Origin: a virus
Strand: one strand, 5' to 3'
Virus record (IMG/VR): IMGVR_UViG_3300025098_000012
Coordinates: 124,001-188,000 of that record
Length of the DNA: 64,000 bases
The first letter of the stretch is position 1; each line of letters opens with the position of its first letter. This document shows, piece by piece, positions 1,207 through 21,960 of the stretch. The notes under the pieces are model-generated. The model was given only the letters and a program-made list of their open reading frames with translations. It did no database searches and was not told the DNA's origin. Position numbers and translations under genes: made by a program.

Positions 1207-4200
1207 TCATTTCTTCCCAAAGCGACCATTGATTGAGTCTCTTAGGTTATAGCGTGGTGATTTAGGTGCAATCCTTTTAGCATCTGAACCACCTCGCCCT
1301 GTGTATCGACCACCTGTAGCAAAGGTCTTTCCCCCTGCCATTGGGTGTCGGTATTGCCGACTGCCTTTAGAACTAGCAAAGTATCGACCTTTGCCGATGT
1401 TATTAGATGCAAGCCATGCCATGCGTACAAGTGCGTCTGACATATCGTCATGTTTGCCTTTAGTCTGTGGGGCTTCGACTGTGATGAGATGCTTACCATG
1501 CACCGTTTGCTGTAGCTCTAAGAGTTCTTGGATATACGGTTCATGTCCTTCTGTCTCATAGTTAGGTCGATTGTAAAGTTTGATCTTCTGATCCCACATC
1601 ATGTCCTTAAAGTTTTGATACATCTGTGAGGAGAGCTGTTTGGTCATATTATGAGAGGTAAGATTTTTCAATCCTCGCTTCTCAAGTGCTTGTTGAAATG
1701 GAATACCAGCCCATTGGTCAAACATACCCTCTGTGATGTAGAACTTCTTTGTGTAATCTAACACCCAGTCAGCGACATCATCGAACTCTAATCGTTCTTT
1801 GTCTTGGTAGATACCTTCACCTGCTTTAATTTGAGCTACTAGATCTACCACGATTTCTTCACCATCGAGATGTCCAATAGCTATGGCAGTTCCGTCACCT
1901 ACAAGACCCAAGTCGATCCCCATAAAGTGTGGCATTCTAGCAGGGGCTGATCTCTGAGGTTTTAACTGTGTGTCAACACAAGATAAGAGATCTTGTTCAT
2001 CTGTGATCCAACCTCTTGTTCTGTCTGTGAACTCGCCACCATACTCTGTAAAGAACACAGCGGCGTTCTTGAGATAATGCTTCTCGAACTCTTGAGCAGG
2101 AACAGTTGGGTTTACTTCCCAAGTAGGAGCTTGGACAGCAAGGATGTTATCGGCAGCCGCTCCCCCACCCATACCGATTTGGAACAGGTTATAAAACAAA
2201 CCCTGTTTACCCAAAGGAGAAGAAATCAAGATAACACGACCCTCTACCTCTCCAATAGGAACTGTGGGGTTGTTAGGGTCTTTAGCCGAGTAAGCAGAGG
2301 TCGAAGGTACAACAGCGTTATAGACTTCTTCAGCACCCGATTGACCTGTTTCAGTAAAGTGAGCCACCTCGTCAAGAATAACGCATATATTACCTGCACC
2401 ACGAAGCCCTTTAGCTACACAAGACCTAAATGTAACTTTAAGAGTAGCTTTAGCAGAGGGATCTTCAATGTATCTACCGTACTTCTCAACATCAGCAGGT
2501 GTTTGAAAGCGAGCGTAAGATAGAGTATTGTTAGCAGTATATGGGCCAAAAAAAGCACAGTTGCGATAGTGTCCAGAAACTTCTTGATAAAGCAATCCTG
2601 CTTGGTCTTTATCAGTCGCCACAGAGATGATTTGGATGTTATTGCTTTGAGGTAGTCCGTAGAACTTTTGTGGGTTTTCTTTTTTGATGAGTTTGTAGGT
2701 TTCATAAGCGGCAATACACGCAGAAATCGTAGTGTTGTGATTAGTAAACCCATTGCCGATGAACATTGCTCCGTTAGGGACATTGAGATCAAAGACATGA
2801 GCTTCACGCTGTTCTACTTTAATGATACGGTCGAAAAAGTAATCGAGGTCAATGAGGTTATATATCTGAGACTTTGTGGTTTGACTTAGACCCTTATGAT
2901 CAGCGATCTTCTTGATCTTCCAATAGGGGGTATATTTAGTTGTAGGGCTTAGATCATGTTCAAGATCGGGGTGGAACTTCTTAAGTCGTTCAGCATACTC
3001 ATAGAAGAATGGCACACCCTCATTAGCACCCCTATAAGAAACGCTCGACATCACACCTTCAAGACACTTTTTCTTACGCTCTGATATAAACCCTATATGT
3101 TGGTCGAAAATCCTCTTAGACTTAGATCCTTTGAGTCTAATACGATACTCGGTTCTATCTTCTCGATTACTTTTGGAAAGGTTAGAGGTGATGCCGAGAT
3201 TGAGTAAAAGGAGTTGTGTCTCCCTCGCAAGCTCATAAGAAGCAGATGAAAGGGTAATAGATTGTTTGTAAGCCGAACCATCTGTTTCAAACAGACCTCT
3301 TAAAAAAGCACACACCACGCTTTTAGGAGATTGCATGATCGTATGTGGGATTTGCTTGGTGGTTGTCGTGCAGTCAACCACCCAACCTAGATTATTAAGG
3401 AACTGTCTTATGTCCTTACCATGAGCTGAGACTCTACCTACATCTACTTTTCTTTTATCTGGATAGTAAGAAACTTTGCCAAACAAGTCTCTGAACAGAC
3501 CCATTAAGTATTTCTCGAATGGCTTCTCCCCTACAGTGATTGAAATAGCTTTATCATTAGTCCAATGACCATCACCTGCAAGCAGACCTAATAACTCACC
3601 CCAACGCTCATCAAGGTATTTGGGTTGGTTCACATTCGTGTGGTGTTCACTTATATCTACATATTCATTAGGCCAAAGCTGACTTGAGCGATTGATGCAA
3701 GCCACATCACCTTCTTCAATCTCTTCAAGGTACTTCCATTCGATCTTACATTCGGGAGTCATCACTTTGATACGATGATTTCCTGTACCCTCAATCCTGT
3801 ATCCACAGAATGTCTCTAGGTACTTGGTAGCTTTTACCCCTCCGTTGTAGAAATAAGCAGACCTAGAGGTTGTACCAGACTCTTGGACTACATTGACTTG
3901 TAAGGGTTGTACCTCATCTCCATTTATATCCCCTAACGAGTCAATCCTAACCATACCTCTATTTGTAGGAATGAGCGTTTCACCTGTTACGCATTTACCC
4001 GATCTACGACCAATAGAGAGGATCATCTCTCGTCTTTGTTTACCTGGTATTACTTCACCTATATTGCAACGACCTTCATCAAAGATTTTTCGCAGGTAAG
4101 ATTTCTCGGTGTGAGTCTCGATTTTGGTTCGTGTCCAATCAGAGATTTGAAAGGTCTTTTCATCATCAAGCTCAAGACCATAGTGTGCTTTAAGGATAAC

Positions 4201-4329
4201 TCTTTGCACAGGAAAAAGGGTCATCTTCAAACCCCAAGATGCTTCTACAAACTCGATGATGTCAGCATCTTTTTCAGATTTTTTACCTGCTCTCGCACTC
4301 GCAGAAATGGCTACTGAGGATAAACTCAT
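1207..4329 (-). CDS. terL: Terminase large subunit, intein-interrupted
   Basis: The ATPase-nuclease motor that packages DNA into proheads. The 1040-residue precursor contains a 420-residue intein (residues 113-532), leaving a mature protein of about 620. The extein Walker A is GRRSGK (107-112) joined to TT after splicing. Walker B follows as ICVILDEVAHF, and a coupling motif as ILISSPLGKQGLF. The C-terminal RNase H-like nuclease domain has FMGIDLG with the first acidic residue and KHDDMSDAL with the last acidic cluster. The start overlaps the upstream stop by one base (TAATG), so translation is coupled. A Gly/Arg-rich tail follows the nuclease. The family call is firm. Confidence 0.95.
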   Translation of the reverse strand: MSLSSVAISASARAGKKSEKDADIIEFVEASWGLKMTLFPVQRVILKAHYGLELDDEKTFQISDWTRTKIETHTEKSYLRKIFDEGRCNIGEVIPGKQRREMILSIGRRSGKCVTGETLIPTNRGMVRIDSLGDINGDEVQPLQVNVVQESGTTSRSAYFYNGGVKATKYLETFCGYRIEGTGNHRIKVMTPECKIEWKYLEEIEEGDVACINRSSQLWPNEYVDISEHHTNVNQPKYLDERWGELLGLLAGDGHWTNDKAISITVGEKPFEKYLMGLFRDLFGKVSYYPDKRKVDVGRVSAHGKDIRQFLNNLGWVVDCTTTTKQIPHTIMQSPKSVVCAFLRGLFETDGSAYKQSITLSSASYELARETQLLLLNLGITSNLSKSNREDRTEYRIRLKGSKSKRIFDQHIGFISERKKKCLEGVMSSVSYRGANEGVPFFYEYAERLKKFHPDLEHDLSPTTKYTPYWKIKKIADHKGLSQTTKSQIYNLIDLDYFFDRIIKVEQREAHVFDLNVPNGAMFIGNGFTNHNTTISACIAAYETYKLIKKENPQKFYGLPQSNNIQIISVATDKDQAGLLYQEVSGHYRNCAFFGPYTANNTLSYARFQTPADVEKYGRYIEDPSAKATLKVTFRSCVAKGLRGAGNICVILDEVAHFTETGQSGAEEVYNAVVPSTSAYSAKDPNNPTVPIGEVEGRVILISSPLGKQGLFYNLFQIGMGGGAAADNILAVQAPTWEVNPTVPAQEFEKHYLKNAAVFFTEYGGEFTDRTRGWITDEQDLLSCVDTQLKPQRSAPARMPHFMGIDLGLVGDGTAIAIGHLDGEEIVVDLVAQIKAGEGIYQDKERLEFDDVADWVLDYTKKFYITEGMFDQWAGIPFQQALEKRGLKNLTSHNMTKQLSSQMYQNFKDMMWDQKIKLYNRPNYETEGHEPYIQELLELQQTVHGKHLITVEAPQTKGKHDDMSDALVRMAWLASNNIGKGRYFASSKGSRQYRHPMAGGKTFATGGRYTGRGGSDAKRIAPKSPRYNLRDSINGRFGKK
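2734..3993 (-). other. LAGLIDADG intein within TerL
   Basis: In-frame intervening protein inserted between Lys and Thr of the Walker A loop. It starts with Cys113 (block A: CVTGETLIPTNRGMVRI), has a block B-like segment with GTGNHRIKV, and ends with the F/G blocks HVFDLNVPNGAMFIG and the terminal His-Asn, followed by Thr. Two homing-endonuclease motifs are visible, LLGLLAGDGHW and FLRGLFETDGS, so the endonuclease domain looks intact. The length of 420 residues is normal for a full intein. Confidence 0.95.
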
Positions 4330-5710: not shown

Positions 5711-8700
5711 TTAAACTTCAAATCCACCAAAAAGAACATCTCCTAACTCTTCATGTGAAGGTGCATCATCGACAGAAACACTTTCACTAGCTGTTAAGTT
5801 GAACTCATTAGCATCATAGTTATTAACGAATAGTGATGCTGTTTGCTCACTATCACTTGCGTTCGCCAATCGGATCATCTCTTGCTGATAAGACTGAGGA
5901 CTCTCAACCACCTCATCTGCTGAAGCAATGATCGGTTTGTTATACTTCTGACAAGACCCATCTGTGTTGAACACGCATGAGCCACACTTAGAGGTCTTAA
6001 GAATTGTTGGGATCTGATTAGCCCTATGGACTAATGCACCTTTATCACAGCCCTCAACACCCTTAGTCATGTAAGCAGAAGCGTCTACATAAGCATGACC
6101 CGATAGACCCTCATGTTCTGATCTGATAGATGCGATCCTATTTCCATACTCATTCACTACATTATGATTAAAGCGTGTAGCGATTAAGACATCTAACTCC
6201 TCACCTGCTGATCCTTCACTCATCTTCTGTCGAACCCATGTGGCTACCTTTTTCTCGGTCGCTGTCATGGTATTTGATTTCTTGTTGCCTAGAATATGAG
6301 CTGTCTGTTCGCCTTGATACTGAGTTGCCTCAGCAGGTTTAGAAGCCATATCGAATGCTTTGCGTACAAACTCATCTGGATTATTAGAGCTTGGAATAGA
6401 ATCAACTTGACCTTGAGTTAGTAAACCTGTCTCTACGAGCTTGGCTACCTTATCTTGAGCTTTTGACCAATCAGAAGCTGTATAGTTAATCTCAGCCTTC
6501 TTAGAGAACTTCGCACCGTAATGTCCAGTCTGACCCGATGCCTTCTTCACATGGACAGGCTTGCTTACTAGCTCATAAAGAGCATGGAGTCGTGCCTGTA
6601 ATGAAGAGTGTTTGTTTACGATACGATCAAACTGATCCATAGAGACAACACCCGACTGAATAAGGGTATTGATCTGACCCATAACCTTCTTCTCATAAGC
6701 CATTTTAGATCGAGAGGCTTGTTTATTGAAGAATGTGTCTTGGATTTTCTTCAGTTGAGAGGAGGTCAAACGAGCTTCAAAGTTATCAGCTTCGCCTTGA
6801 TAAGTTGATACTTTATCTGTCTTAGACTCAATCAGCTTCAAGACAGCCCTAAGTTTGCCTTCTGGAGTAGACGCTTTCTTAGCTACTCTTTCAACTTCAT
6901 CAATCGACACTAAGTTAGCCGAGATCAACCCTGCAATCTTTTCTTGGGCTATTTCTTTTCTACGAGTAAGCTCTCTACTGCCCTTTTGAGGTACATAAGC
7001 GTTAGCGTCTGTCTGATGCTTACGCATATTGTGATAAGATGCGTTCTTACCTTGACCCTCATAAGTGGAATAGTCATCAACCTTATGTGCAATCCTGTTA
7101 AAGACAGCCGACACCTTATCTTCGGGTGTTTGGTACTTAGCAATGATTGATGTCGCTTCTTGTGCAGAAATCAAGCCTGCTTTAACAATACGAGCAATCT
7201 TGTCTTTCGCCCTAGCGTACCTTTGCTCCATAGTGATCTCAGAACGAGTCTTAAAGTCGCTCTCAATCTCATTGCGAGTAGGGAGTAGGAGTTTGACTCC
7301 AATACCTTGACCCTCATAAGTAGAGGCAAGGTTCTCTATGTTTTTAGCGATGTGATTGAATACAGCTTTAACTTTATCTTCTGGTAACTCAAATCGAGAT
7401 GAGATAGAGGAGGCTTCTTGTGATGTAATCATACCTGCTTTAACGATACGACCAATCTTATCTTTAGCTGATGCAAAGCGTTGATCGAGGTTCAGCTCAG
7501 AGCGAGTCTTAAAGTTCTCCTCGATTTTGCTCTTATGTGGGGTATGAGCTTTAATGCCAACACCTTGACCAAGATAGTCCTTCGCATCTTTCGGTGTACT
7601 TGCTAACTCATACAGACGCTCAATCTTTTTAGATGCTGTCTTGTTCGATTCAACAACAGCATTGACTTGCTCCTCATCAAGAAATCCTTGATTGATGAGT
7701 TGGCTTGCGATCCGATTGAGTTTTTGTTCAATCTTTGATTGTTCAACATCTTCATACGAAGCAACAAAGATGTTTTCTTCTCTAGCGTTTTCTAGTTCCC
7801 TACGAGCATGGTCAAGAGAGATAAGGCTAGATTGATCGAGCTGTGTTGGAAACCATGTTGCAGATTTATCTTGTCGGTTTACACGACCTTCAATGAGATC
7901 TATAAACGCTGTCTGTAAGCGAGCTTTAGTAGATCCAGATGCGAGGCGAACACCGTAAGACTCTAGCTTAGGGAGTAGGGCTTTAGATGCTTTGTTCCAA
8001 GGTACTTCATTGACGACTTCCATACCCAAGAAGCGATCAAAGGCACAGTCTTTATTTTTAGGGATGATATACATCGCTGTTGCACAACGCTTGTTGATTA
8101 CTTCATCCCAACGACCATTGAACAAACCAGGAAAGTGTTCTTCTTTAATGTAAACACGACCATGTAATCCATACTCGGAAGCGAGCTTGGATTTGATCTC
8201 TAGGACTTGAGACTCTTTTACTTCGGAGAGAACTACATTCATAGGGTGTCCATAAGCGAGCTTACGAATGTTACGCTCCATCTCTTCCCTATAATCATCC
8301 CCTGGTAGTTGAGACTGTTCGTCAGTGTAGTTATTTTTATATGGTGCGTGGTATCTATTCTCATTTGGAATGATGTCAAGACCTGTGGTGCTAGTCTGAC
8401 CCCATGACTGCTCAAGAGCTTTAAGCTGATTGCTCGCAGGGTTATTCATGTGTCCATCAGCAAGGTCTTTATATACTTGCTCCATCTCGGCTGTACCACT
8501 AAGATCGGGTTCGGGCTGAGAAGCGAGCCATGAGTGGTCAACTAAAGTCACATCTTGAGTTGCTTCACGAGTGATCTCACCCATATTAAGATCAGCTTGA
8601 TGCTCTATCCCATCGGGAAGCATTGAGATACCCGAACTATCGAGTGGGATCATTCCACTAGGTAAGTTTGCTAACCCTCTTGCTTCGGGCAATCGAGCTT

Positions 8701-13417: not shown

Positions 13418-13765
13418 CTATTGGTTCACTCTAAGTTTAGAGCGTTGGGTTGATTTGTTGACAGTTTTAGGGAGGTGGTTGTTACCCATATTGACACGAG
13501 TACCCATTGCCTTCTGAAACTTGTCCTCTACGATCTGAGGGTAATCTTTCGGCTTGGTGCTGAAAGCATAAATCTCATTGAGTCGATACTGCTCTTCTTG
13601 TGTCATTCCAGGCAGTAGCTTCAAGAAATCATCCCTAGCTTTCTGATTGTCATTCGATAGGAACTCTAGGATCAAGTAAGCAGGGAGTACAGGCTTATTA
13701 GTCGGGTCATCTTCCACACCCTTTAGGGTGTTTTCACCATCGGGTCGTATCCAAAAGTTTTCCAT
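13418..13765 (-). CDS. Small unknown protein
   Basis: A 115-residue, charged, mostly helical protein with a basic C-terminus (NKSTQRSKLRVNQ). A promoter-like motif and AGAGGAGA lie upstream. It precedes the two-TM membrane protein by 10 bases, suggesting a two-gene operon. No family recognised. Confidence 0.75.
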   Translation of the reverse strand: MENFWIRPDGENTLKGVEDDPTNKPVLPAYLILEFLSNDNQKARDDFLKLLPGMTQEEQYRLNEIYAFSTKPKDYPQIVEDKFQKAMGTRVNMGNNHLPKTVNKSTQRSKLRVNQ

Positions 13766-13796
13766 AACAATCTCCTCTCTTTTAAGTAGGGGATTG

Positions 13797-13811
13797 TATA
13801 AAGGAACTATT
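13797..13811 (-). promoter_or_regulatory. Promoter-like motif AATAGTTCCTTTATA
   Basis: Two-mismatch copy of the recurrent motif, 31 bases before the start at 13765. A weak inverted repeat (ACAATC/GATTGT) lies between it and the ATG. Confidence 0.45.
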
Positions 13812-13825
13812 AAAGGAGGTGTCTT

Positions 13826-14188
13826 ATGGAACGAAAGACCGTAATGAAGATCACGAGCAGTATGTTAGACTGCAAATGTAAGGGTGATGGATATATTTTC
13901 CTCAAAAAAGGGGGCATGATTAAATGCCCGACACATTATGCTTGTGCGTCTAGCGAAGATTATCGCTTAGAGATGCTAAGACTTGAGTATCAAAACTTGA
14001 GGAGGTTCGTTTTAGATATGCCCCACATGAACTCAAGTTTTATTGATCTTAGTTTGCCTACGACAGCTAAGGGTGTTGATGAGCATATCGGGTCAAATTA
14101 TGAGGTGGACTCAGCCGAGTCTTGGGTGAGAGCTATCCAACATTATGTGCGAGAATACTTACTTAACTACAAGGTGAAAGAGGATTAG
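13826..14188 (+). CDS. Unknown protein with a CKCKGDGY cysteine motif
   Basis: A 120-residue protein preceded by AAAGGAGG. Near the N-terminus it has C-x-C-K-G-D-G and, 16 residues on, CPTHYAC, which together could make a small zinc site. The rest is helical. It is divergent from the 13765 gene and upstream of the nuclease-like gene at 14219. Function unknown. Confidence 0.75.
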   Translation: MERKTVMKITSSMLDCKCKGDGYIFLKKGGMIKCPTHYACASSEDYRLEMLRLEYQNLRRFVLDMPHMNSSFIDLSLPTTAKGVDEHIGSNYEVDSAESWVRAIQHYVREYLLNYKVKED

Positions 14189-14218
14189 TAATCCTCGTCT
14201 TCATCTACTGAGGATGTC

Positions 14219-14785
14219 ATGAAGAAAAAGCTCCTAGAGGGTATAGATGCCTCTTTTGACTATTTTGTAAGACAACACCTTAACTCATACTCAAAAGTCT
14301 CACTCAGCTCGAATAAAGACGCTCAAATAAGGTCGTTCGTTAAACAGGTGATAGAGAAGAAGCGAGCAGAGGGGGGTCAATACTTTAAAGATCCAGAGTC
14401 ATTGGCTAAAAGGTATCTAACAGGTTGGGGTGGAGAGTGTGCTGTTGAAAAACACATAGGTAAACCCTTTGTCGATTTTACTATAGGAGACTCACATGAC
14501 TACTATGTACCCGACTTGAGGTCAGCAGGATATGAGGTGGGAGTTAAGACGGTGAGCATGGGCGACTTTCCCCTGTTAAGGAAACCTACACCTAGTTCAT
14601 CAAACACACCTCAGATTATCGTGATACGAGAGTCTAACCTTGATTATTACATCTGTGGGTTGGCTACCTATGATGTAGTAAACGACCCCAACAACTTCTC
14701 TCAGTTGCTAGTGCGTAGTGGGGGAGTCTTAGAGGTAGGGGTCAAATCAGCGTTTTATCGCTTTGACCTTCTCTCCCCTCTTTAG
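14219..14785 (+). CDS. Putative PD-(D/E)XK-type nuclease
   Basis: A 188-residue protein. The segment GGECAVEKHIG, then YYVPDLRSAG and YEVGVKTVS, follows the E...PD...ExK spacing of restriction-like nucleases: a helix with Glu, an Asp in a strand, then E-V-G-V-K. AGGATG lies before the start. I call it from this pattern only; a single motif match can mislead. Possible roles are host DNA degradation or recombination. Confidence 0.5.
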   Translation: MKKKLLEGIDASFDYFVRQHLNSYSKVSLSSNKDAQIRSFVKQVIEKKRAEGGQYFKDPESLAKRYLTGWGGECAVEKHIGKPFVDFTIGDSHDYYVPDLRSAGYEVGVKTVSMGDFPLLRKPTPSSSNTPQIIVIRESNLDYYICGLATYDVVNDPNNFSQLLVRSGGVLEVGVKSAFYRFDLLSPL

Positions 14786-14841
14786 CTGAGGTTGGTGGGT
14801 AGGCTTGCCTGTGTTTGATGTCGCTATCTCTCGTTACACCT

Positions 14842-15384
14842 TTACATCTTAGCAAGCTCGCTTGGGCTATATGCTAGGAAGTTCCCATCCCATTCTTTAC
14901 GAGGATCGTCCTCAAAAGGAGGCATCGATGGTCCTGCGTAAACTGTGATAAGACCTTGTTTACCACCACCTGTTGGGATGATGATAAGGGTAAGGATGTC
15001 GGTTGCTCTCATTGGTCGAGGGCGACTGATAAGACGCTGTTCTGGACGACCCTCACCACGAGACTTGTAGAAAAACTCCTCATCTCTCATGTTGATACGA
15101 TCACCCATCTTCTTGCCATGTAAACGAGTCTCGCCTCGGAAGCCTTGTACTCTAAGTTCGGTAGCTCCGTTTGGACCTCCCATATCTTCCCACATCTGAA
15201 AAGCCTTAGCGAGAGACTTAGCGTCAAACTCTTTAGCGTGGGTTTTGAAGTGAGTGGAAAGAAGCTCGATGTCGTTGCGAGCAAGAAACTCTTCAACTAC
15301 AGAGTCTACAGAGCCTGCTTGACGCTCAAGGCGAGCAACTCGTTGCTCAAGATTACGGATTACTTCTGATGCTGTTCTTCTCAT
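14842..15384 (-). CDS. Tagged protein 3, shared N-terminal helix
   Basis: A 180-residue protein beginning MRRTASEVIRNLEQRVARLE and then RQAGS. The middle holds basic/aromatic sequence (GETRLHGKKMGD, EEFFYKSRG) and the end a hydrophobic beta segment (DILTLIIIPTGGGKQGL, ITVYAGPSMPPFEDD). I do not recognise the body. Unlike the other tagged genes it is preceded by the GTAACCC-type promoter motif rather than the AATAGT type. Confidence 0.85.
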   Translation of the reverse strand: MRRTASEVIRNLEQRVARLERQAGSVDSVVEEFLARNDIELLSTHFKTHAKEFDAKSLAKAFQMWEDMGGPNGATELRVQGFRGETRLHGKKMGDRINMRDEEFFYKSRGEGRPEQRLISRPRPMRATDILTLIIIPTGGGKQGLITVYAGPSMPPFEDDPRKEWDGNFLAYSPSELAKM

Positions 15385-15417
15385 AGTGAGATCGACTCAT
15401 TGGCATTGATAAATAAT

Positions 15418-15435
15418 CTATAAATAAAGGGTTAC
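15418..15435 (-). promoter_or_regulatory. Promoter-like motif GTAACCCTTTATTTATAG
   Basis: One-mismatch copy of the second recurrent motif, GTAACCCCTTATYTATA, 33 bases before tagged gene 3. Six other copies occur in the window, all pointing at gene starts. Confidence 0.55.
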
Positions 15436-15629
15436 ACTTCCCACCAATCGTACATTGTAAATCCGTACTCCTCGCTGATCCAATCTGAGATACCATCTTC
15501 ATCCTCATAGGCGATGTCGATAGGTACGAGAACAATATGAGGTAGTCCAGCTTGTTCAACAGCGTTATCATAATCTGTATCTTCAAGCTCTGTTTGAGAA
15601 AAATCCCATTGAACACGAACTTTCATCAT
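15432..15629 (-). CDS. Small acidic unknown protein downstream of glutamine synthetase
   Basis: A 65-residue acidic protein rich in Asp, Glu and Trp (ISDWISEEYGF, YDWWEV). Two adjacent ATG codons (15629, 15626) overlap the glutamine synthetase stop (ATGATGA), and GGGG lies just upstream; either could be used. Translational coupling to the synthetase suggests co-expression. No family recognised. Confidence 0.7.
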   Translation of the reverse strand: MMKVRVQWDFSQTELEDTDYDNAVEQAGLPHIVLVPIDIAYEDEDGISDWISEEYGFTMYDWWEV

Positions 15630-16648
15630 TTACCCCAAGTGTCTGAAATAGTCCTTATCAATGCTTCACACACAAGATAAGGGTCAGCATTAGCGTTAGG
15701 TCTACGATCTTCAAAGTAGCCACAACCATTCTTATCTGTCTCCACAGGAATGCGAACCGAAGCTGTCCGATCAGACACTCCCGACTTAAATTCATCATAG
15801 CGACAAGTCTCATGGTGTCCTGTTAATCGGATCTCATACCCTGCACCATACCGATCAAGGTGTTCTTGAATCCTGTGAGACATCTTCTCTACAGCTTTGT
15901 TGATTTCCTCGATACCACCTTCTTGTCTCATTGCTTTGGTAGAGAAGTTGGTGTGCATACCTGCACCGTTCCAATCACCTGTAACTGGCTTAGGGTCAAG
16001 GGTAGCCGAGATGTCGAAATCTTCACCTACACGATAAAGAAGCCACCGAGCAATCCACAGATAGTCACTTGCAGACAGAGCATCTTGCATCGGACCACCG
16101 AGTTGGAACTCCCATTGACCAGGCATTACTTCAGCGTTGATCCCTGTGATTGGTAGTTCTGCTTTCAAGCACACATCAAGATGCTTCTCTACGAGATTTC
16201 TACCCGAAACTTCATCTGAACCAACCCCACAATAATAAGGACCTTGTTCAGCAGGAAACCTACGCTCACTAGGGAAGCCCAAAGGTCTTGATCCCTTATA
16301 GAGAGTATATTCTTGTTCAAAAGCAACCCACTCGCCTTGATCTACGAATGACTTGAGTGCCTCTACGAGTTTGGCTCTTGTATTTGAAGGGTGTTTTTCA
16401 CCATCTACTGTTTCTACTTCACAAAGAACGAGAATGTTATCTCCACCTCTGATGGGATCTTCGACAACTCGTACTGGTCTTAATACACAATCTGATGAGT
16501 TGCCTTCAGCTTGCATGGTGGAAGATCCATCAAAGCTCCAAAGGGGCAACTGTTCGGGTGAAAAAGTAGGTGCTGTGAGATACTTCGTCTTTGACCTTAC
16601 CCTTGCTGTAGGGTTTCCACCATCAATCCAAATATATTCTGCGAGCAT
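15626..16648 (-). CDS. Glutamine synthetase, eukaryotic/GlnII type
   Basis: Makes glutamine from glutamate, ammonia and ATP. At 340 residues it matches the short type II family, not the roughly 470-residue bacterial GlnA. Visible family blocks are AEYIWIDGG at the start, LPLWSFDGSSTMQAEG, SDCVLRPV, the Glu-rich FEQEYTLY, RPLGFPSERRFPAEQGPYYC, NAEVMPGQWEFQ, DWNGAGMHTNFST, LTGHHET, and the C-terminal DRTASVRIP and YFEDRRPNANADPY. These include metal-binding Glu and ATP/glutamate-binding residues. The start at MLAEYIW follows AAAGGAGAG; an upstream ATG is not needed. Carrying this gene would supply glutamine for nucleotide synthesis; that purpose is inference. Confidence 0.95.
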   Translation of the reverse strand: MLAEYIWIDGGNPTARVRSKTKYLTAPTFSPEQLPLWSFDGSSTMQAEGNSSDCVLRPVRVVEDPIRGGDNILVLCEVETVDGEKHPSNTRAKLVEALKSFVDQGEWVAFEQEYTLYKGSRPLGFPSERRFPAEQGPYYCGVGSDEVSGRNLVEKHLDVCLKAELPITGINAEVMPGQWEFQLGGPMQDALSASDYLWIARWLLYRVGEDFDISATLDPKPVTGDWNGAGMHTNFSTKAMRQEGGIEEINKAVEKMSHRIQEHLDRYGAGYEIRLTGHHETCRYDEFKSGVSDRTASVRIPVETDKNGCGYFEDRRPNANADPYLVCEALIRTISDTWGK

Positions 16649-16682
16649 TAAGCTCTCCTTTCTTAAATAAGAGAAGAGATAC

Positions 16683-16696
16683 AATAAATAAACTAT
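16683..16696 (-). promoter_or_regulatory. Promoter-like motif before glutamine synthetase
   Basis: ATAGTTTATTTATT, 34 bases before the start at 16648 and touching the stop codon of the last methyltransferase gene. Confidence 0.5.
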
Positions 16697-17517
16697 CAGT
16701 CAACATCACCAAATATGTCGAAGATAGAAATCTGTTCTCCCTTTTGAGGTTTCGCCTTGCCTACTAGAGCTTCAGATTCAATCTCTGTTCCTATAGGCAT
16801 CCAATGTCGAATACGAGCTTCACAGATTTTCGCATATTCGGGATTAAGTTCAACCCCTACAAAGTCATGACCTAAGCGACTCATAGCGATCCCTGTTGTA
16901 CCAGAACCTAAAAATGGGTCTACAACCTTTGAATTAGGTGCTATGTCTCTAGCACACCATTCCATAATTTCTATTGGTTTAACTGTTGGGTGTATATTTG
17001 CTCTAGGTTGTTGACCACTCGTGCCAGCATACGGATTTGCATCAGGTTTTCCGTTTTTTATTCTAACTAAGCCCGCAGAACCTTCTTTCCTACCCGTTAA
17101 CTCGGAGTTATTTTTTTTATTTAATCCATCTAGTCCTGCTTCTCTTTCAGACCGACTCGCTTTTGAGGTATATTGAAATGTGTTGGGTTCTTCAGCTACA
17201 AAAATAGCATCTCGGACTTCAAAACCACAGTCTTCAAGAGCAATCACACCCTTATATCCTATATCTTCTGGGATCATTACGACATGAGCACCTGGTTTAA
17301 GGATGTCCTTAATCTCTTTAGATTGTTCGTCTGTAGGTTCTCCAAGTAAGATGAGTCCATGCACCATAGGTTCATAGGTAGACAGTAAAGATCCTTCTTC
17401 AAAGACCTCTTTCTTGTAGGTAGAGAAGTCAATCTCATTAGGTTGAGAGACGATTACACAAGCATCCTCTACAGGAGGTGTGATCATTGTCTTAAAGTAT
17501 TCAATCATGTCTTTCAT
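16696..17517 (-). CDS. Methyltransferase AdoMet-binding piece (module C)
   Basis: A 273-residue protein resembling the C-terminal part of single-chain phage N4/N6 methyltransferases. Residues about 195-240 hold HPTVKPIEIMEW (motif X region) and DPFLGSGTTG (motif I, AdoMet binding), then FVGVELNPEYA. The N-terminal 110 residues resemble a catalytic half (LKPGAHVVMIPEDIGYKG, ALEDCGFEVRDAIF, SKASRSEREAGL), but where DPPY is expected there is only LLGEPT, so it should lack the catalytic motif. It is the last gene of the chaperonin-methyltransferase operon and overlaps the previous gene by ATGA. It probably needs a DPPY partner in trans. Confidence 0.85.
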   Translation of the reverse strand: MKDMIEYFKTMITPPVEDACVIVSQPNEIDFSTYKKEVFEEGSLLSTYEPMVHGLILLGEPTDEQSKEIKDILKPGAHVVMIPEDIGYKGVIALEDCGFEVRDAIFVAEEPNTFQYTSKASRSEREAGLDGLNKKNNSELTGRKEGSAGLVRIKNGKPDANPYAGTSGQQPRANIHPTVKPIEIMEWCARDIAPNSKVVDPFLGSGTTGIAMSRLGHDFVGVELNPEYAKICEARIRHWMPIGTEIESEALVGKAKPQKGEQISIFDIFGDVD

Positions 17518-17930
17518 TGATCATTCTCTTTCTTAAATTGTTTGAAGAACCTAGAAGCACCCCCTGTTTCAGTTCTCCAATCCGACTTTTCAACCATGTC
17601 TGGTATCTTGTCGGTGAAATCTTCATTGCTTCTTTTATATGAATAATTTGAGGTGTTTGTTTTGATACCACTTTGTCGATCTAACTCTTGAACAGGGCAA
17701 TCCCCAATAAGAATAAAGTTAGCAGGCCACCTACCTGTGGATTCTTTAGCTTCTATAGGCTTAGACTTCCAATGGACATCTATCTCACCCCCTAAGCTAC
17801 TCATAGCAGTTGAAACCATAGTTTCAGTTCCTACTCTAGTAGCGTCTATATCCAAAGCACCACATCCATGTTTCAGGACATTATCTGCTACACTGCCCCC
17901 TAGAGACTTTCTTAATATGGTGATAATCAT
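17514..17930 (-). CDS. Methyltransferase central module B4 (target-recognition-like)
   Basis: A 138-residue protein starting MIITILRKSLGGSVADN and GCGALDID, then GRWPANFIL, CPVQELDRQSG and GGASRFFKQFKK. In one-piece phage methyltransferases these blocks lie between the catalytic half and the AdoMet-binding end, where target recognition is expected. Here they form a separate protein with no catalytic or AdoMet motif. It overlaps both neighbours by four bases. Paralogue of the modules at 17927, 18813 and 19386. Confidence 0.8.
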   Translation of the reverse strand: MIITILRKSLGGSVADNVLKHGCGALDIDATRVGTETMVSTAMSSLGGEIDVHWKSKPIEAKESTGRWPANFILIGDCPVQELDRQSGIKTNTSNYSYKRSNEDFTDKIPDMVEKSDWRTETGGASRFFKQFKKENDQ

Positions 17931-18247
17931 AGTTCATTCTCCTTTTTAAACTTCTTGAAAAACTTCGACCCCTCACAACTAACCTCATTTGTTAAGATGA
18001 AATTAGCTGGCCATCTGCCCTTTTCTTTATACATTTGTATGTCTGAACCAACTTGAGCAACATGACCCGACCACCCGCTCTCTTTGTAGGAAGCTGTTTG
18101 TTGTCTTTGCCTAGCTTCAAAGTTTATACTTTCATTTTCATCGTAGCCTACTCTAGTGACATCTATATTCAAAGCTCCGCACCCATGTTTAAGAGTGTTT
18201 TCGGCTACGCTTCCCTCTAGGGGTTTTCTAAGGATAGTGATGATCAT
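17927..18247 (-). CDS. Methyltransferase central module B3, shortened
   Basis: A 106-residue copy of the central module. It has MIITILRKPLEGSVAEN, GCGALNID, GRWPANFIL and a terminal SKFFKKFKKE, but lacks the CPVQELDRQSG block and the variable insert seen in its paralogues. It begins inside the stop of catalytic module A2 (ATGA). It may be a minimal recognition cassette or a decaying copy; the frame is intact. Confidence 0.75.
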   Translation of the reverse strand: MIITILRKPLEGSVAENTLKHGCGALNIDVTRVGYDENESINFEARQRQQTASYKESGWSGHVAQVGSDIQMYKEKGRWPANFILTNEVSCEGSKFFKKFKKENEL

Positions 18248-18813
18248 GTTTTAACTCCAATGCAAACTGGTTCCCAAGCAGGTTTAAGAGCTGTACCCCA
18301 ACCTTCCCACTTTTTAGCTTCATCTGAAACTAAAGCCCGAATAGGTATTTGAGTTGCTTTTTGAACAATACCAACACCGCCTCGTGCAATACCCCCATGA
18401 CCTTGTGAGTCCTCAACGCTCACACCTAGTTTATGTCCGATGACTTCTCCCTCAACTCCTAGCTTCTTTTCAAACTGCTTGGCTAGATTATGAGATTTCG
18501 GAAAACCAGACCCGTATGCCCATGCTTCTACTTTCAAGTCTGCGAAGCCTATTTCTCCCATCATTGCTATTAAATGATGAAAGGTTCTCGTACCGCTAAA
18601 AGCCTTAAGGACACCGTTAGGTTTAAGGACTCTATGAGCTTCTCTAATCCAAGCTCTATGCCATTCTCTTTGTTGAGATCCTTCCCCAATGTCATCCCAA
18701 CCTTTAGACATAAACTTAAGTCCGTAAGGGGGGTCGCAGATAATAGCGTCTACGGAGTTATCTTCTAAGTCTTTAAGTCGTTGGGTGCAATCACCTATCT
18801 TGATTTCTATCAT
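18244..18813 (-). CDS. Methyltransferase catalytic half A2 (DPPY)
   Basis: A 189-residue protein equal to the N-terminal half of beta-class DNA methyltransferases: IEIKIGDCTQRLKDL, then catalytic motif IV CDPPYG (about residues 27-32), VLKPNGVLKAFSG, FHHLIAMMGEIGF, and ending GWGTALKPAWEPVCIG. In one-piece relatives the chain continues directly into RKPLEGSV; here it stops and the next gene begins with that block. No motif I is present, so it cannot bind AdoMet by the usual motif alone. Confidence 0.85.
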   Translation of the reverse strand: MIEIKIGDCTQRLKDLEDNSVDAIICDPPYGLKFMSKGWDDIGEGSQQREWHRAWIREAHRVLKPNGVLKAFSGTRTFHHLIAMMGEIGFADLKVEAWAYGSGFPKSHNLAKQFEKKLGVEGEVIGHKLGVSVEDSQGHGGIARGGVGIVQKATQIPIRALVSDEAKKWEGWGTALKPAWEPVCIGVKT

Positions 18814-19382
18814 TAGTCATTCTCTTTCTTAAGTTGTTTGAAGAACCTGGAAGCTCCACCCTCATCTCCAAATCCTGTCATTTCTCCTCCTGGGAAGTTT
18901 CCATGATAGCCTGTACCTGCTTTTTTAGTTCCTGTCGGTTTACCACTTTGTCGGTCTAACTCTTGAACTGAGCAACCCTCAACACAAGCCCAATCAGATA
19001 TGGTTTCTTTTCCATCTTTATCTGCATGACCTACCCTGTGAATACCCTCTTTAGAGTTATTCATGGAAATAGAAGTCTTAGCTTCATTACCTACAGAGGG
19101 TTTGCTTATTGCACCCTTAACTTTCTTAGTGCCTTTTAGTTCACAACCATCTTTATGGGTAAGGATAAAGTTAGCTGGCCACCTGCCTTTTGACTCAGTT
19201 GGATCTATAGGTTTAGATTTCCAATTATCATCGTGCATAACCCCTAGACTACCCATAGACCTAGAAACCATAGTCTCTGTACCTACTCTAGTGGCATCTA
19301 TATTTATAGCACTACAACCATGTTTAAGAGTATTCTCAGTTACTGAACCCTCTAACGGTTTTCTCAATATGGTGATAATCAT
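18813..19382 (-). CDS. Methyltransferase central module B2 (target-recognition-like)
   Basis: A 189-residue central module with MIITILRKPLEGSVTEN, GCSAINIDATRVG, GRWPANFILTHKDGCELKG, WACVEGCSVQELDRQSG and GGASRFFKQLKKE. Between the conserved blocks it carries a variable stretch of about 60 residues, different from B1, which is where sequence specificity could lie. It begins 3 bases after B1 ends and overlaps A2 by one base. Confidence 0.8.
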   Translation of the reverse strand: MIITILRKPLEGSVTENTLKHGCSAINIDATRVGTETMVSRSMGSLGVMHDDNWKSKPIDPTESKGRWPANFILTHKDGCELKGTKKVKGAISKPSVGNEAKTSISMNNSKEGIHRVGHADKDGKETISDWACVEGCSVQELDRQSGKPTGTKKAGTGYHGNFPGGEMTGFGDEGGASRFFKQLKKEND

Positions 19383-19385
19383 AGT

Positions 19386-19997
19386 TCATTCTCCTTTCTT
19401 AAATTGTTTGAAGAAACGAGAAGCACCTCCCTCATCATTATACCCCTCTTTATACCCTTGTCTTTGGGTTGACGAGTTATGAAAAGAGTTTCCTTGGTAT
19501 GGATTAAAAGTATTATGGTTTTGACTCGACCAACCTTTGACTTGACCACTTTGTCTATCTAACTCTTTAACAGGACAATCCTCTGCACAATCCCAATCAG
19601 CTACTGTTTCCTCTCCTTGATGGTGGTCTTTAGCTCTTTTCTTAAGTCCATCCTTATAAAGACCTACTTCTCTGTCAGAATAAAGACCTACTTCTCTGTC
19701 AGAGCCACTTTTACCCTGTTTGGTCTTCTTAATCCCTTTTAACTCACAATCGTCTTTGTGAGTAAGAATGAAGTTAGCTGGCCACCTACCTGTAGTAATC
19801 TTCCCCTCAAAGTCTTCTTTAAGACCCGATTGAAAGACAGTACTTTTATGCTTATCTGGAGAGCGTCCATTTTTAGAAGTGTCTTGAACTAAGTTCCCAA
19901 TGCGAGTGGCATCAATGTTGATAGCCCCACACCCATGTTTAAGGGTGTTCTCAGTCACACTCCCCTCTAGGGGCTTTCTAAGTAATGTAATGATCAT
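19386..19997 (-). CDS. Methyltransferase central module B1 (target-recognition-like)
   Basis: A 203-residue central module, the longest copy: MIITLLRKPLEGSVTEN, GCGAINIDATRIG, GRWPANFILTHKDDCELKG, WDCAEDCPVKELDRQSG and GGASRFFKQFKK. It contains a short internal duplication, two copies of SDREVGLY in a row, matched by a DNA repeat near 19670-19700. It overlaps catalytic module A1 by ATGA. Confidence 0.8.
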   Translation of the reverse strand: MIITLLRKPLEGSVTENTLKHGCGAINIDATRIGNLVQDTSKNGRSPDKHKSTVFQSGLKEDFEGKITTGRWPANFILTHKDDCELKGIKKTKQGKSGSDREVGLYSDREVGLYKDGLKKRAKDHHQGEETVADWDCAEDCPVKELDRQSGQVKGWSSQNHNTFNPYQGNSFHNSSTQRQGYKEGYNDEGGASRFFKQFKKGE

Positions 19998-20584
19998 AAC
20001 TTAACTCCTATACAAACTGGTTCCCAAGATTTCTTAAGGGTAGTGCCATAGCCCATGTAAAGAGAAGCCTCTTTAGTCTGAGGTTCAAGATCAAAAGCTA
20101 CTCCGTCTATCTGATAGTCTTTAGGTCGGAGGCCATGCTCTAAAAATATTTTACTATATCCTACTTTCCCTCCCCTACGACTACCTTTAAGTTTTTTAAA
20201 TGTTTTTTTGTTAGAGTTTCCAAATAAGAGTGTTGCCTCTATGCCTTTTGCCATGTCGTAGTTCCCTGTCGGCATACCACTTGTGTAAACCCATGCCTCG
20301 ACTACGAGGTTTACGAACCCTACTTCAATCATAGCAGATGTTAAATGATGCAATGTTTTAGCACTTGAGAACGCTTTAAGGACACCATTAGATTTAAGGA
20401 CTCTATGAGCTTCGGTTAACCATCCACAATGCCATTCTCTTTGTTGCTTTCCCAACCCTAAATCATCCCAACCTTTTTCCAAATACCTTACACCATAAGG
20501 GGGATCACAGATAATAGCGTCTACGGAGTTATCCTCTAGGTCTTTAAGTCGTTGGGTGCAATCACCAATCTTTATTTCTATCAT
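19994..20584 (-). CDS. Methyltransferase catalytic half A1 (DPPY)
   Basis: A 196-residue paralogue of A2, with the same IEIKIGDCTQRLKDLEDNSV opening, CDPPYG motif IV, LKSNGVLKAFSSAKTLHHL and terminal KKSWEPVCIG. It differs from A2 in the central part (SNKKTFKKLKGSRRGGKVG, basic). It overlaps the chaperonin stop by ATGA, so the whole operon is translationally coupled. It lacks the AdoMet-binding motif, which in this locus only module C provides. Confidence 0.85.
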   Translation of the reverse strand: MIEIKIGDCTQRLKDLEDNSVDAIICDPPYGVRYLEKGWDDLGLGKQQREWHCGWLTEAHRVLKSNGVLKAFSSAKTLHHLTSAMIEVGFVNLVVEAWVYTSGMPTGNYDMAKGIEATLLFGNSNKKTFKKLKGSRRGGKVGYSKIFLEHGLRPKDYQIDGVAFDLEPQTKEASLYMGYGTTLKKSWEPVCIGVKL

Positions 20585-21960
20585 TTCTTACTCCTAACGA
20601 TATGACCCACAGAGCCTAAAGTCGTGGCTATTGATATGGATTTGTCTAATAACTCTATTAGTCTACCAACAGGGAAAGGTTCATAGAGTTCTTTTATATC
20701 CCATACGCTAGAGTCATTCTCAGCCTTACCTAAGTTATGACATACGACTTTAAAAGGTGCTTTCAATGCTCGATCAAGATATGGGTTTCCTGTGTCTATA
20801 TTATAAAGGGTAGGTATTGCACCTTTAACATAACCATTTGCCTTTGCGTCCATCATAGAAATCAAGGCTTTTTCGGCTAATCCCCTTCTCCATCTTGCTT
20901 CAGCTTCGGTTGTTCCGCCAACTCTTAATCGAACAAGAGTTCCATTTAAAGCGTTGGCTCTTTTTCTAAGTTGATCTTGTGTGTGTGGGAAAGGACTACT
21001 TTCCGCTTCCCTTAAAAGTTCGTCTACTCTATTTGCTGTTGTATCTACATGATCATCATAAGGATCAACAATCATTTCATTGTAGTTAAGGACTGTGTTA
21101 ATCGCAGACCCATAGAACTCTGGTGAAAACTTTTCGTACTTTTGATCTACAACGGTTGCCCCTGTAAACGAAGCAAAGTCATCTAGCCAACCCTTACCCC
21201 AAATCACTCTAGGTGCGTCACAAGCGTACACTTCAAGCGTTCCCTTATGATTGTTCATCTTGATTGCTTGAAGGGCTTTACCCCCAACCATAGGAGCGAT
21301 AATGACTAATGGTCTTCCTTCAAACGACCCCATATACTCCATAGCGTTGAGTACATGATCTATTTCAAATACGGGGCGACTGAATAGAGCAAACATCGGT
21401 CCTTTAAGATATGCTTCTTTGTCATGGTGTACTTTTAAAGAAGCGTGGAAAGACTCTGTTTCAACCACCTCGCACCCATTACCCTCCCATTTCTCAAGAG
21501 AGACATGAGAAGATAAAGACCCTGCGAGATAGATTGCTTCAGATATTTTATCTATGGACTCCTCATCAAGCTCACTTTGTAGACCTATTTCTTTTAGTAT
21601 CTCTTGGTTTGAGTCAAATCGAGGCACATCATCCACAGCTATATTGACTGCTCCTTTAACTCCGTCTGTAATCTTAGGGTGGACTTCACCATAATGACGA
21701 TGAAAAGACCTTAACAGAGAAATCGTGACAAACGCTCCGAGCTTGCACCCATCACCAGACCTACACAGTTCTAATAAGGAAGTCTGAATGATCCTAGCGT
21801 GGGGTTCGGGATGATAAGCGTTGATGATCGACTTAGCCGAGAGGTTATTCCAAACCTTGTTGTTACGAGAGAGCAGGACTGTCCCTCCATTACTCGCATG
21901 GCTCAAAACTAAAAGTGATGATAGTTCGTTTATCGTAGGTATAAATAGAGATAACGACAT
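20581..21960 (-). CDS. Divergent GroEL-like chaperonin
   Basis: A 459-residue protein matching group I chaperonin along its whole length, though shorter than the 548 of E. coli GroEL. It has NGGTVLL near the start, SGDGCKLGAFVTISLL at the ATP-binding GDGTTTAT position, an apical-domain block GRPLVIIAPMVGGKALQAIK and FTGATVV, and RVGGTTEAEARWRRGLAEKA aligned to the GroEL segment around Asp398. The Asp398 position aligns to Lys364, so normal ATP hydrolysis may be lost. The Gly/Met tail is missing. Jumbo phages are known to carry GroEL-like proteins that fold phage products. First gene of the methyltransferase operon; only a weak ribosome binding site. Confidence 0.8.
   Translation of the reverse strand: MSLSLFIPTINELSSLLVLSHASNGGTVLLSRNNKVWNNLSAKSIINAYHPEPHARIIQTSLLELCRSGDGCKLGAFVTISLLRSFHRHYGEVHPKITDGVKGAVNIAVDDVPRFDSNQEILKEIGLQSELDEESIDKISEAIYLAGSLSSHVSLEKWEGNGCEVVETESFHASLKVHHDKEAYLKGPMFALFSRPVFEIDHVLNAMEYMGSFEGRPLVIIAPMVGGKALQAIKMNNHKGTLEVYACDAPRVIWGKGWLDDFASFTGATVVDQKYEKFSPEFYGSAINTVLNYNEMIVDPYDDHVDTTANRVDELLREAESSPFPHTQDQLRKRANALNGTLVRLRVGGTTEAEARWRRGLAEKALISMMDAKANGYVKGAIPTLYNIDTGNPYLDRALKAPFKVVCHNLGKAENDSSVWDIKELYEPFPVGRLIELLDKSISIATTLGSVGHIVRSKK

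Follow-up and report, generated by a model that had tools for sequence, protein, structure and literature searches.

A seven-gene viral array suggestive of a split, multi-cassette beta-class DNA methyltransferase

The DNA methyltransferases M.AquI and M.EcoHK31I are C5 enzymes that are naturally split into two polypeptides (PMC3404938). Here we characterize an array of seven genes in a 64,000-nt stretch of viral DNA (the window; positions 124001-188000 of the 226,698-base IMG/VR virus record IMGVR_UViG_3300025098_000012). The array comprises catalytic (A), recognition-like (B) and S-adenosylmethionine (AdoMet) motif-bearing (C) genes, and its sequences suggest a split, multi-cassette beta-class DNA methyltransferase with a predicted activity on N6 of adenine, which is favored because of the DPPY motif, or, less likely, on N4 of cytosine. 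Like M.AquI and M.EcoHK31I, the array distributes a DNA methyltransferase over separate polypeptides. In contrast to the array, those enzymes are of the C5 class and consist of two parts in single copies, and their modules are not multiplied. The likeness to M.AquI-type splitting rests on motif complementarity and natural fusions.

Other described systems share single properties with the array. One-piece phage N6/N4 enzymes have the order A-B-Cc (Cc is the C-terminal part of C), the same motifs, the same types of the variable block V1, and inteins in relatives, but they are a single open reading frame (ORF) with one recognition region and without a pseudo-catalytic half. The one-piece phage relatives (PHROG 67/3008) are probably the actinophage methylase family for which within-gene recombination and inteins have been described (PMC9957025). 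Type I HsdM/HsdS resembles the B modules in its separate, exchangeable specificity subunit with two variable blocks; however, it is of another methyltransferase class and motif order, and its catalytic and AdoMet motifs lie together in HsdM, whereas motifs I and IV of the array are encoded by different genes. No HsdR was seen. Phage C5 methyltransferases of the SPR/phi3T type carry several target-recognition domains (TRDs) on one chain and are multispecific. Several specificities on one phage catalytic machinery are also what we propose for the array, but the SPR/phi3T TRDs act in cis in a C5 enzyme. A comparable in-cis arrangement, with the B region present twice in tandem, is found in a one-piece enzyme (locus L064, 5989-7725; retrieved loci are given L numbers). 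METTL3-METTL14 and MTA1-MTA9 pair a catalytic partner with a catalytically dead methyltransferase-like partner, similar to A and C, but METTL3 carries DPPW and the AdoMet site on one chain, whereas DPPY and motif I of the array are on different chains. The beta-class dimers CcrM, M.BceJIV, RsrI and EcoP15I Mod, the best structural matches of an A-B-C fusion model, are homodimers or Mod dimers of complete chains, unlike the array. Searches of an open-access library of papers turned up no array encoding a split phage N6 methyltransferase, nor did they reveal the combination of the beta class, three parts, multiplied A and B, and one C with a dead catalytic half.

The array spans 16696-20584 on the minus strand and reads A1-B1-B2-A2-B3-B4-C, and all seven ORFs are uninterrupted and start with ATG:

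A1: 19994-20584, minus strand; 196 aa, catalytic half with DPPY (motif IV) at ~20495-20506 and a variable block V0 of the KGIEATLLFGNSNKK... type.
B1: 19386-19997, minus strand; 203 aa, recognition-like, with V1 at ~19791-19898, a cysteine-bearing insert, and V3 at ~19425-19544.
B2: 18813-19382, minus strand; 189 aa, recognition-like, with V1 at ~19188-19283 and V3 at ~18855-18941.
A2: 18244-18813, minus strand; 189 aa, catalytic half with DPPY at ~18724-18735 and V0 at ~18310-18492.
B3: 17927-18247, minus strand; 106 aa, short recognition-like module with V1 only (~18020-18148).
B4: 17514-17930, minus strand; 138 aa, recognition-like, with V1 at ~17736-17831 and V3 at ~17559-17666.
C: 16696-17517, minus strand; whole gene, composed of the halves Cn and Cc.
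Cn: 17164-17517, minus strand; N-terminal half of C, pseudo-catalytic, with E-P-T at ~17332-17340 in place of DPPY.
Cc: 16696-17163, minus strand; C-terminal part of C, with motif X (HPTVKP) at ~16975-16992, preceded by a variable loop, and motif I (DPFLGSGTTG) at ~16891-16920.

Four junctions (A1/B1, A2/B3, B3/B4 and B4/C) are 4-nt ATGA overlaps, B2 and A2 overlap by 1 nt, and a gap of 3 nt separates B1 from B2. A1 and A2 end with WEPVCIGVKL and WEPVCIGVKT, respectively; the B proteins start with MIIT and have RFFK (B1, B2 and B4) or KFFK (B3) a few residues ahead of the stop. The gene positions and the DPPY, WEPVCIG, MIIT, RFFK/KFFK, HPTVKP and DPFLGSGTTG motifs of a preliminary description of this DNA were all verified in the seven ORFs. 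Profile searches of the whole record revealed one C, two A and four B genes, with no further clear copies.

A1, A2 and C match the N6_N4_Mtase family (PF01555) with 40.9 bits (model positions 1-111 of 221), 52.9 bits (1-100) and 58.5 bits (146-219), all higher than the cut-off of 26.7 bits. In the Pfam search the B proteins match no family, S-subunit families included, and no solved relative was detected for them in the PDB. They match PHROG 3008 ‘DNA methyltransferase’ (E 1e-5 to 2e-11) at positions 2-139 of 244, and C matches the same PHROG at 142-212. A, B and C match different stretches of these models and therefore correspond to consecutive parts of one-chain enzymes, as the preliminary description had proposed. 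The motifs are complementary. Among distinct proteins, DPPY is present in all A (43/43) and in no C (0/30), and motif I is absent from all 43 A, whereas motif I and TVKP are both complete in 27 of the 30 C. C carries motif I (D-P-F-x-G-S-G) and motif X (HPTxKP), which A lacks, and neither protein alone contains all the motifs. Beta-class enzymes carry all motifs on one polypeptide in the order IV-VIII, TRD, X, I; in the array they are spread over A, B and C, while the same order is present in a natural fusion (L089) and in the one-piece relatives.

In related enzymes of phages and bacteria, A, B and Cc are joined in the same order on one chain. Natural B-C fusions occur in L002 (477 aa) and L090/L091 (400 aa), and one 577-aa ORF in L089 is an A-B-Cn-Cc fusion. 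These fusions, together with the one-piece relatives, indicate that the parts belong to one enzyme.

To survey the family, IMG/VR was searched with C and A2, and the ORFs of the retrieved loci were scored by A, B, Cn (C residues 1-118) and Cc (C residue 118 to the end) profiles. Separate A, B and C ORFs were found on ~45 viral contigs (some near-identical), mostly of large phages and ranging from short fragments up to 375 kb, which rules out sequencing error, misassembly or chance as the source of the split. Every array uninterrupted by a contig end has a single C together with one or more A and one or more B. Number and order differ: A-B-C, B-A-C, A-A-B-C, A-B-A-A-B-C and B-A-B-A-A-B-A-C occur, as do C-A-A-B-A-B-B-A-A-A (L092) and BBBBBB-C-A-A-B (L149), and short B proteins of 103–107 aa resembling B3 in length are also present in L003, L006, L036, L037 and L054. 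The ATG of the next gene overlaps the stop by 4 nt at 42 of 65 distinct junctions. The conserved tails of A (CIGVKK) and B (FKKEN) overlap a Shine-Dalgarno-like GGAG/AGGA of the next gene at some junctions, so that their conservation may partly reflect a translation signal. None of the 50,697 INPHARED phage records covers 80% of C. The 485-kb huge phage LR745208.1 (L001) has three one-piece A-B-Cc enzymes and not the split array. Among the best 80 matches of a bacterial and archaeal genome scan with the C profile, one-piece enzymes were found and a split array was not confirmed; the filter picked out L227. A dCMP-deaminase-like gene, named by eye from its sequence, lies between or beside the A/B/C genes in L037, L041, L055 and L016.

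The ratio of nonsynonymous to synonymous substitution rates (dN/dS) was determined for pairs limited to closely matched A, C, B1 and B3. The values are 0.107 for A1 (versus its L002 counterpart), 0.048–0.062 for A2, 0.05–0.06 for C, 0.062–0.094 for Cn, 0.15 for B1 and 0.062 for B3. Values of ~0.05–0.11 mark strong purifying selection on A, C and B3. Profiles, recurrence and selection agree on a split into catalytic, recognition-region and AdoMet-motif genes with multiplied A and B and a single C.

C had been described as an AdoMet module. Motifs X and I are indeed present, but C also contains a degenerate catalytic half without DPPY, so that it is not only an AdoMet module. In residues 1–118 the DPPY place is occupied by ‘GLILLGEPT’; the H-G-x-I-L-x-x-E-P-T segment is invariant in 19 of 19 sequences, and the strand-helix-strand-helix-strand pattern of Cn is A-like. 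An hhalign comparison of a profile of 29 Cn with one-piece catalytic halves gave a probability of 98.2% (E 3e-14, 50 columns, 40% identity); the comparison of C with the split-family A profile, in which both alignments are shallow, gave only 8.9%. The invariant segment, the hhalign match and the dN/dS of Cn rule out the simpler description, and Cn is still present in the L089 fusion. C looks like a methyltransferase that has lost its catalytic motif and recognition region, as judged from sequence. The variable loop KEGSAGLVRIKNGKPDANPYAGTSGQQPRAN ahead of motif X in C is shared with a one-piece enzyme of L024.

In the B proteins, the ends and a GRWPANFIL core are conserved, two blocks (V1 and V3) vary, and a cysteine-bearing insert is optional. 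V1 of window B1 is similar to that of the L002 B-C fusion (89% aa and 85% nt identity), while its V3 is similar to that of a different B of L002 (95% aa, 93% nt). The B protein at L016 7408-8013 shares V1 with window B2 (78% aa, 86% nt) and V3 with window B1 (97% aa, 93% nt), its V3 being 20% identical to that of window B2; in these B1/L002 and B2/B1-L016 pairs the remaining block is at most 27% identical. Among 30 non-redundant B proteins, 11 resemble one B in V1 alone and a second B in V3 alone, and pairs alike in both blocks are few (4, compared with 1.7 expected for independence). By block type, 49 B pairs have a common V1 but not V3, versus 5 with both. These comparisons indicate that V1 and V3 shuffle independently between phages. 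One-piece phage methyltransferases also carry blocks of this sort, for example DNLNGGAY. A recognition-like role had been assigned to B only; the variable blocks of B agree with this, but A has a variable recognition-like block (V0) too. A paralogues of the same array (L034, L036, L041 and one L010 pair) are 84–93% identical in the core and 16–31% in V0, while the two L010 A genes of one V0 type show a smaller difference (54%). By analogy with the evolution of target-recognition regions in known systems, the block shuffling in B and the hypervariable V0 in A appear TRD-like. The beta-class TRD lies between motifs VIII and X, and from their position V1, V3 and V0 may read the DNA.

The L089 fusion was folded by AlphaFold with a 40-row alignment (mean predicted local distance difference test score (pLDDT) 67.7; predicted template modeling score 0.65; A, Cn and Cc cores >90). 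Its best PDB matches by Foldseek are CcrM (6pbd), M.BceJIV (8urk, 9c3s and 9c3u), RsrI and MboIIA, and METTL14 and MTA1 are among the weaker ones. The alignments cover ~530 columns versus targets of 190–280 residues with a target template modeling score of 0.6–0.75, and these column counts suggest that A and Cc together superpose onto a single fold in the model, with B and Cn largely skipped. The model of C alone has a mean pLDDT of 62 and no useful fold match.

We consider it probable that the array encodes a split multi-cassette enzyme, in which one A, one B and the single C assemble as an active methyltransferase and several specificities are possible. Assembly as A:B:C is likely and combinatorial specificity is plausible. 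A, the DPPY half, B, the TRD region, and C, the half with motifs X and I, would form one active enzyme with the part order of the one-piece phage relatives, and B, perhaps also V0 of A, would set the target sequence. Cn, having lost DPPY, may be kept for structure, e.g. as a platform on which the parts assemble or as the catalytically inactive member of a pseudo-dimer. Two A, four B and one C could give up to 8 combinations with different targets, and the methylated targets would protect phage DNA from several host restriction systems. The physical trimer, the interchangeability, the several specificities and the anti-restriction role are what we infer from the data above, and the A+C composite fold is a prediction. 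More tentatively, any A and any B may join the single C, so that the number of A multiplied by the number of B would set the upper limit of specificities (8 in the window, 12 in L010), with swaps of V0, V1 and V3 creating new ones and the dead C half serving as a universal docking platform; the independent shuffling of V1 and V3 and the hypervariable V0 fit this combinatorial idea well.

Several points weigh against the split-enzyme interpretation. The alignment for the L089 model included one-piece relatives, whose A and Cc lie on a single chain, and the model is therefore not an independent test; the Foldseek rmsd is 10–18 Å, the mean pLDDT is as given above, and the alignment coordinates are derived from column counts. 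DNA contact by V1 and V3 rests on the position of B between motifs VIII and X. The numbers of A and B are unequal, so gene counts do not give the pairing rules. The one-piece enzymes offer no explanation for Cn, and the model of C alone is too poor to place it.

Unequal numbers would also suit an alternative of low but appreciable probability, in which one A-B-C set is active at a time and the remaining A and B genes serve as a store of variants whose recombination yields new specificities over evolutionary time, like silent hsdS cassettes. The shuffling of V1 and V3 among close relatives, such as window B1 with V1 of one L002 B and V3 of another, points in the same direction. However, the window cassettes are all intact, ATG-started, overlap-coupled and under purifying selection where testable, which suggests that each is expressed and used. 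It is quite unlikely that C is a self-sufficient AdoMet-binding pseudo-methyltransferase and that A+B form a separate lobe acting in trans or a regulator, i.e. a METTL3-METTL14-like heterodimer instead of a composite Rossmann fold. Although Cn is a conserved second catalytic-half fold joined to Cc, and METTL14 and MTA1 appear among the weaker structural matches, A has no AdoMet motif of its own and the matches of the fusion model run from A to Cc and skip Cn. A cause of V0/V1/V3 diversity other than target specificity, such as escape from a host inhibitor or another substrate, is decidedly improbable: the link of the blocks to DNA recognition derives from position, but this position is the beta-class TRD place, the alternation of two variable blocks, with conserved ends, recalls the organization of TRDs, and one-piece phage methyltransferases hold such blocks as well. 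Programmed frameshifting into one chain, without a real split, would make use of the 4-nt overlaps (-1 frame) at 42 of 65 junctions; it is highly improbable given that no slippery heptamer was seen at the window junctions, that B and C genes have their own ATG and, at some junctions, Shine-Dalgarno-like sequences, and that consecutive A or B copies, or dCMP deaminase or other genes between modules, preclude one proper chain. That the genes are degenerating leftovers of duplicated methyltransferases retained by chance, as the damaged member of a tandem one-piece array in L066 might hint, is scarcely credible and is refuted for A and C by selection and recurrence (dN/dS 0.05–0.15 in the close pairs of A, C, B1 and B3; ~45 contigs; motifs kept in 43/43 A and 27/30 C).

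The tandem array of L066 bears on the origin of the split enzyme. Because relatives have tandem one-piece arrays with one member damaged in motif IV (L066), the comparison suggests that the split arose by duplication followed by complementary loss. A pseudo-methyltransferase that has a B region and degenerate catalytic motifs lies within the L066 array (7268-8272). In a tree of A, most split A proteins, including those of L092, form one group (support 93/93), and the A proteins of L149 and L025 are placed elsewhere, among one-piece viral enzymes. The best A tree, which is rough and has few columns, requires three changes of state; the split could therefore have taken place more than once or been reversed. 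Inteins are present at the same site within motif X of C (HP|TVKP) in L149 (4468-6303), L025 (1693-3528), L252 (7644-9890) and L253 (7824-9236). Intein-like inserts at a shared site (YG|SGFPK) occur in split A genes and one-piece enzymes (L089 2157-4067, L066 4109-5965, L077 3529-5514 and L252 10488-12116). In L253, one ORF (13484-16123, named by eye from sequence) combines a B module and an intein-bearing C5-type methyltransferase.

The array is flanked by two genes:

15626-16684, minus strand; glutamine synthetase (Gln-synt_N and Gln-synt_C) that immediately follows C and may be a metabolic gene or a modification enzyme.
20581-21960, minus strand; divergent GroEL-like chaperonin (~4e-18 to PDB chaperonins, without a Pfam match), overlapping the A1 start by 4 nt.

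A cognate endonuclease was sought only in these flanking genes, and neither is a nuclease. Genes for a phage major head protein and for a head-maturation-protease-like protein are also present in the virus record, which points to a large tailed phage. A 1040-aa protein with a LAGLIDADG intein is encoded at window positions 1207-4329 (minus strand).

Phage methyltransferases protect phage DNA (PMC4190342), and for one jumbo phage with several methylases it has been proposed that these counter several restriction systems (PMC7824862). By analogy, protection from several host restriction systems is the likely use of the array. If the parts are interchangeable, the array would be a compact, expandable anti-restriction system of the phage, with one cofactor subunit serving several catalytic and recognition subunits. 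It would then represent a natural combinatorial DNA-modification enzyme and a clear case in which a one-piece enzyme became subunits by duplication and complementary loss, with a pseudoenzyme half retained. It would also supply modular parts for research on DNA reading by beta-class methyltransferases, and it offers a way to test how large phages deal with many restriction systems of their hosts.

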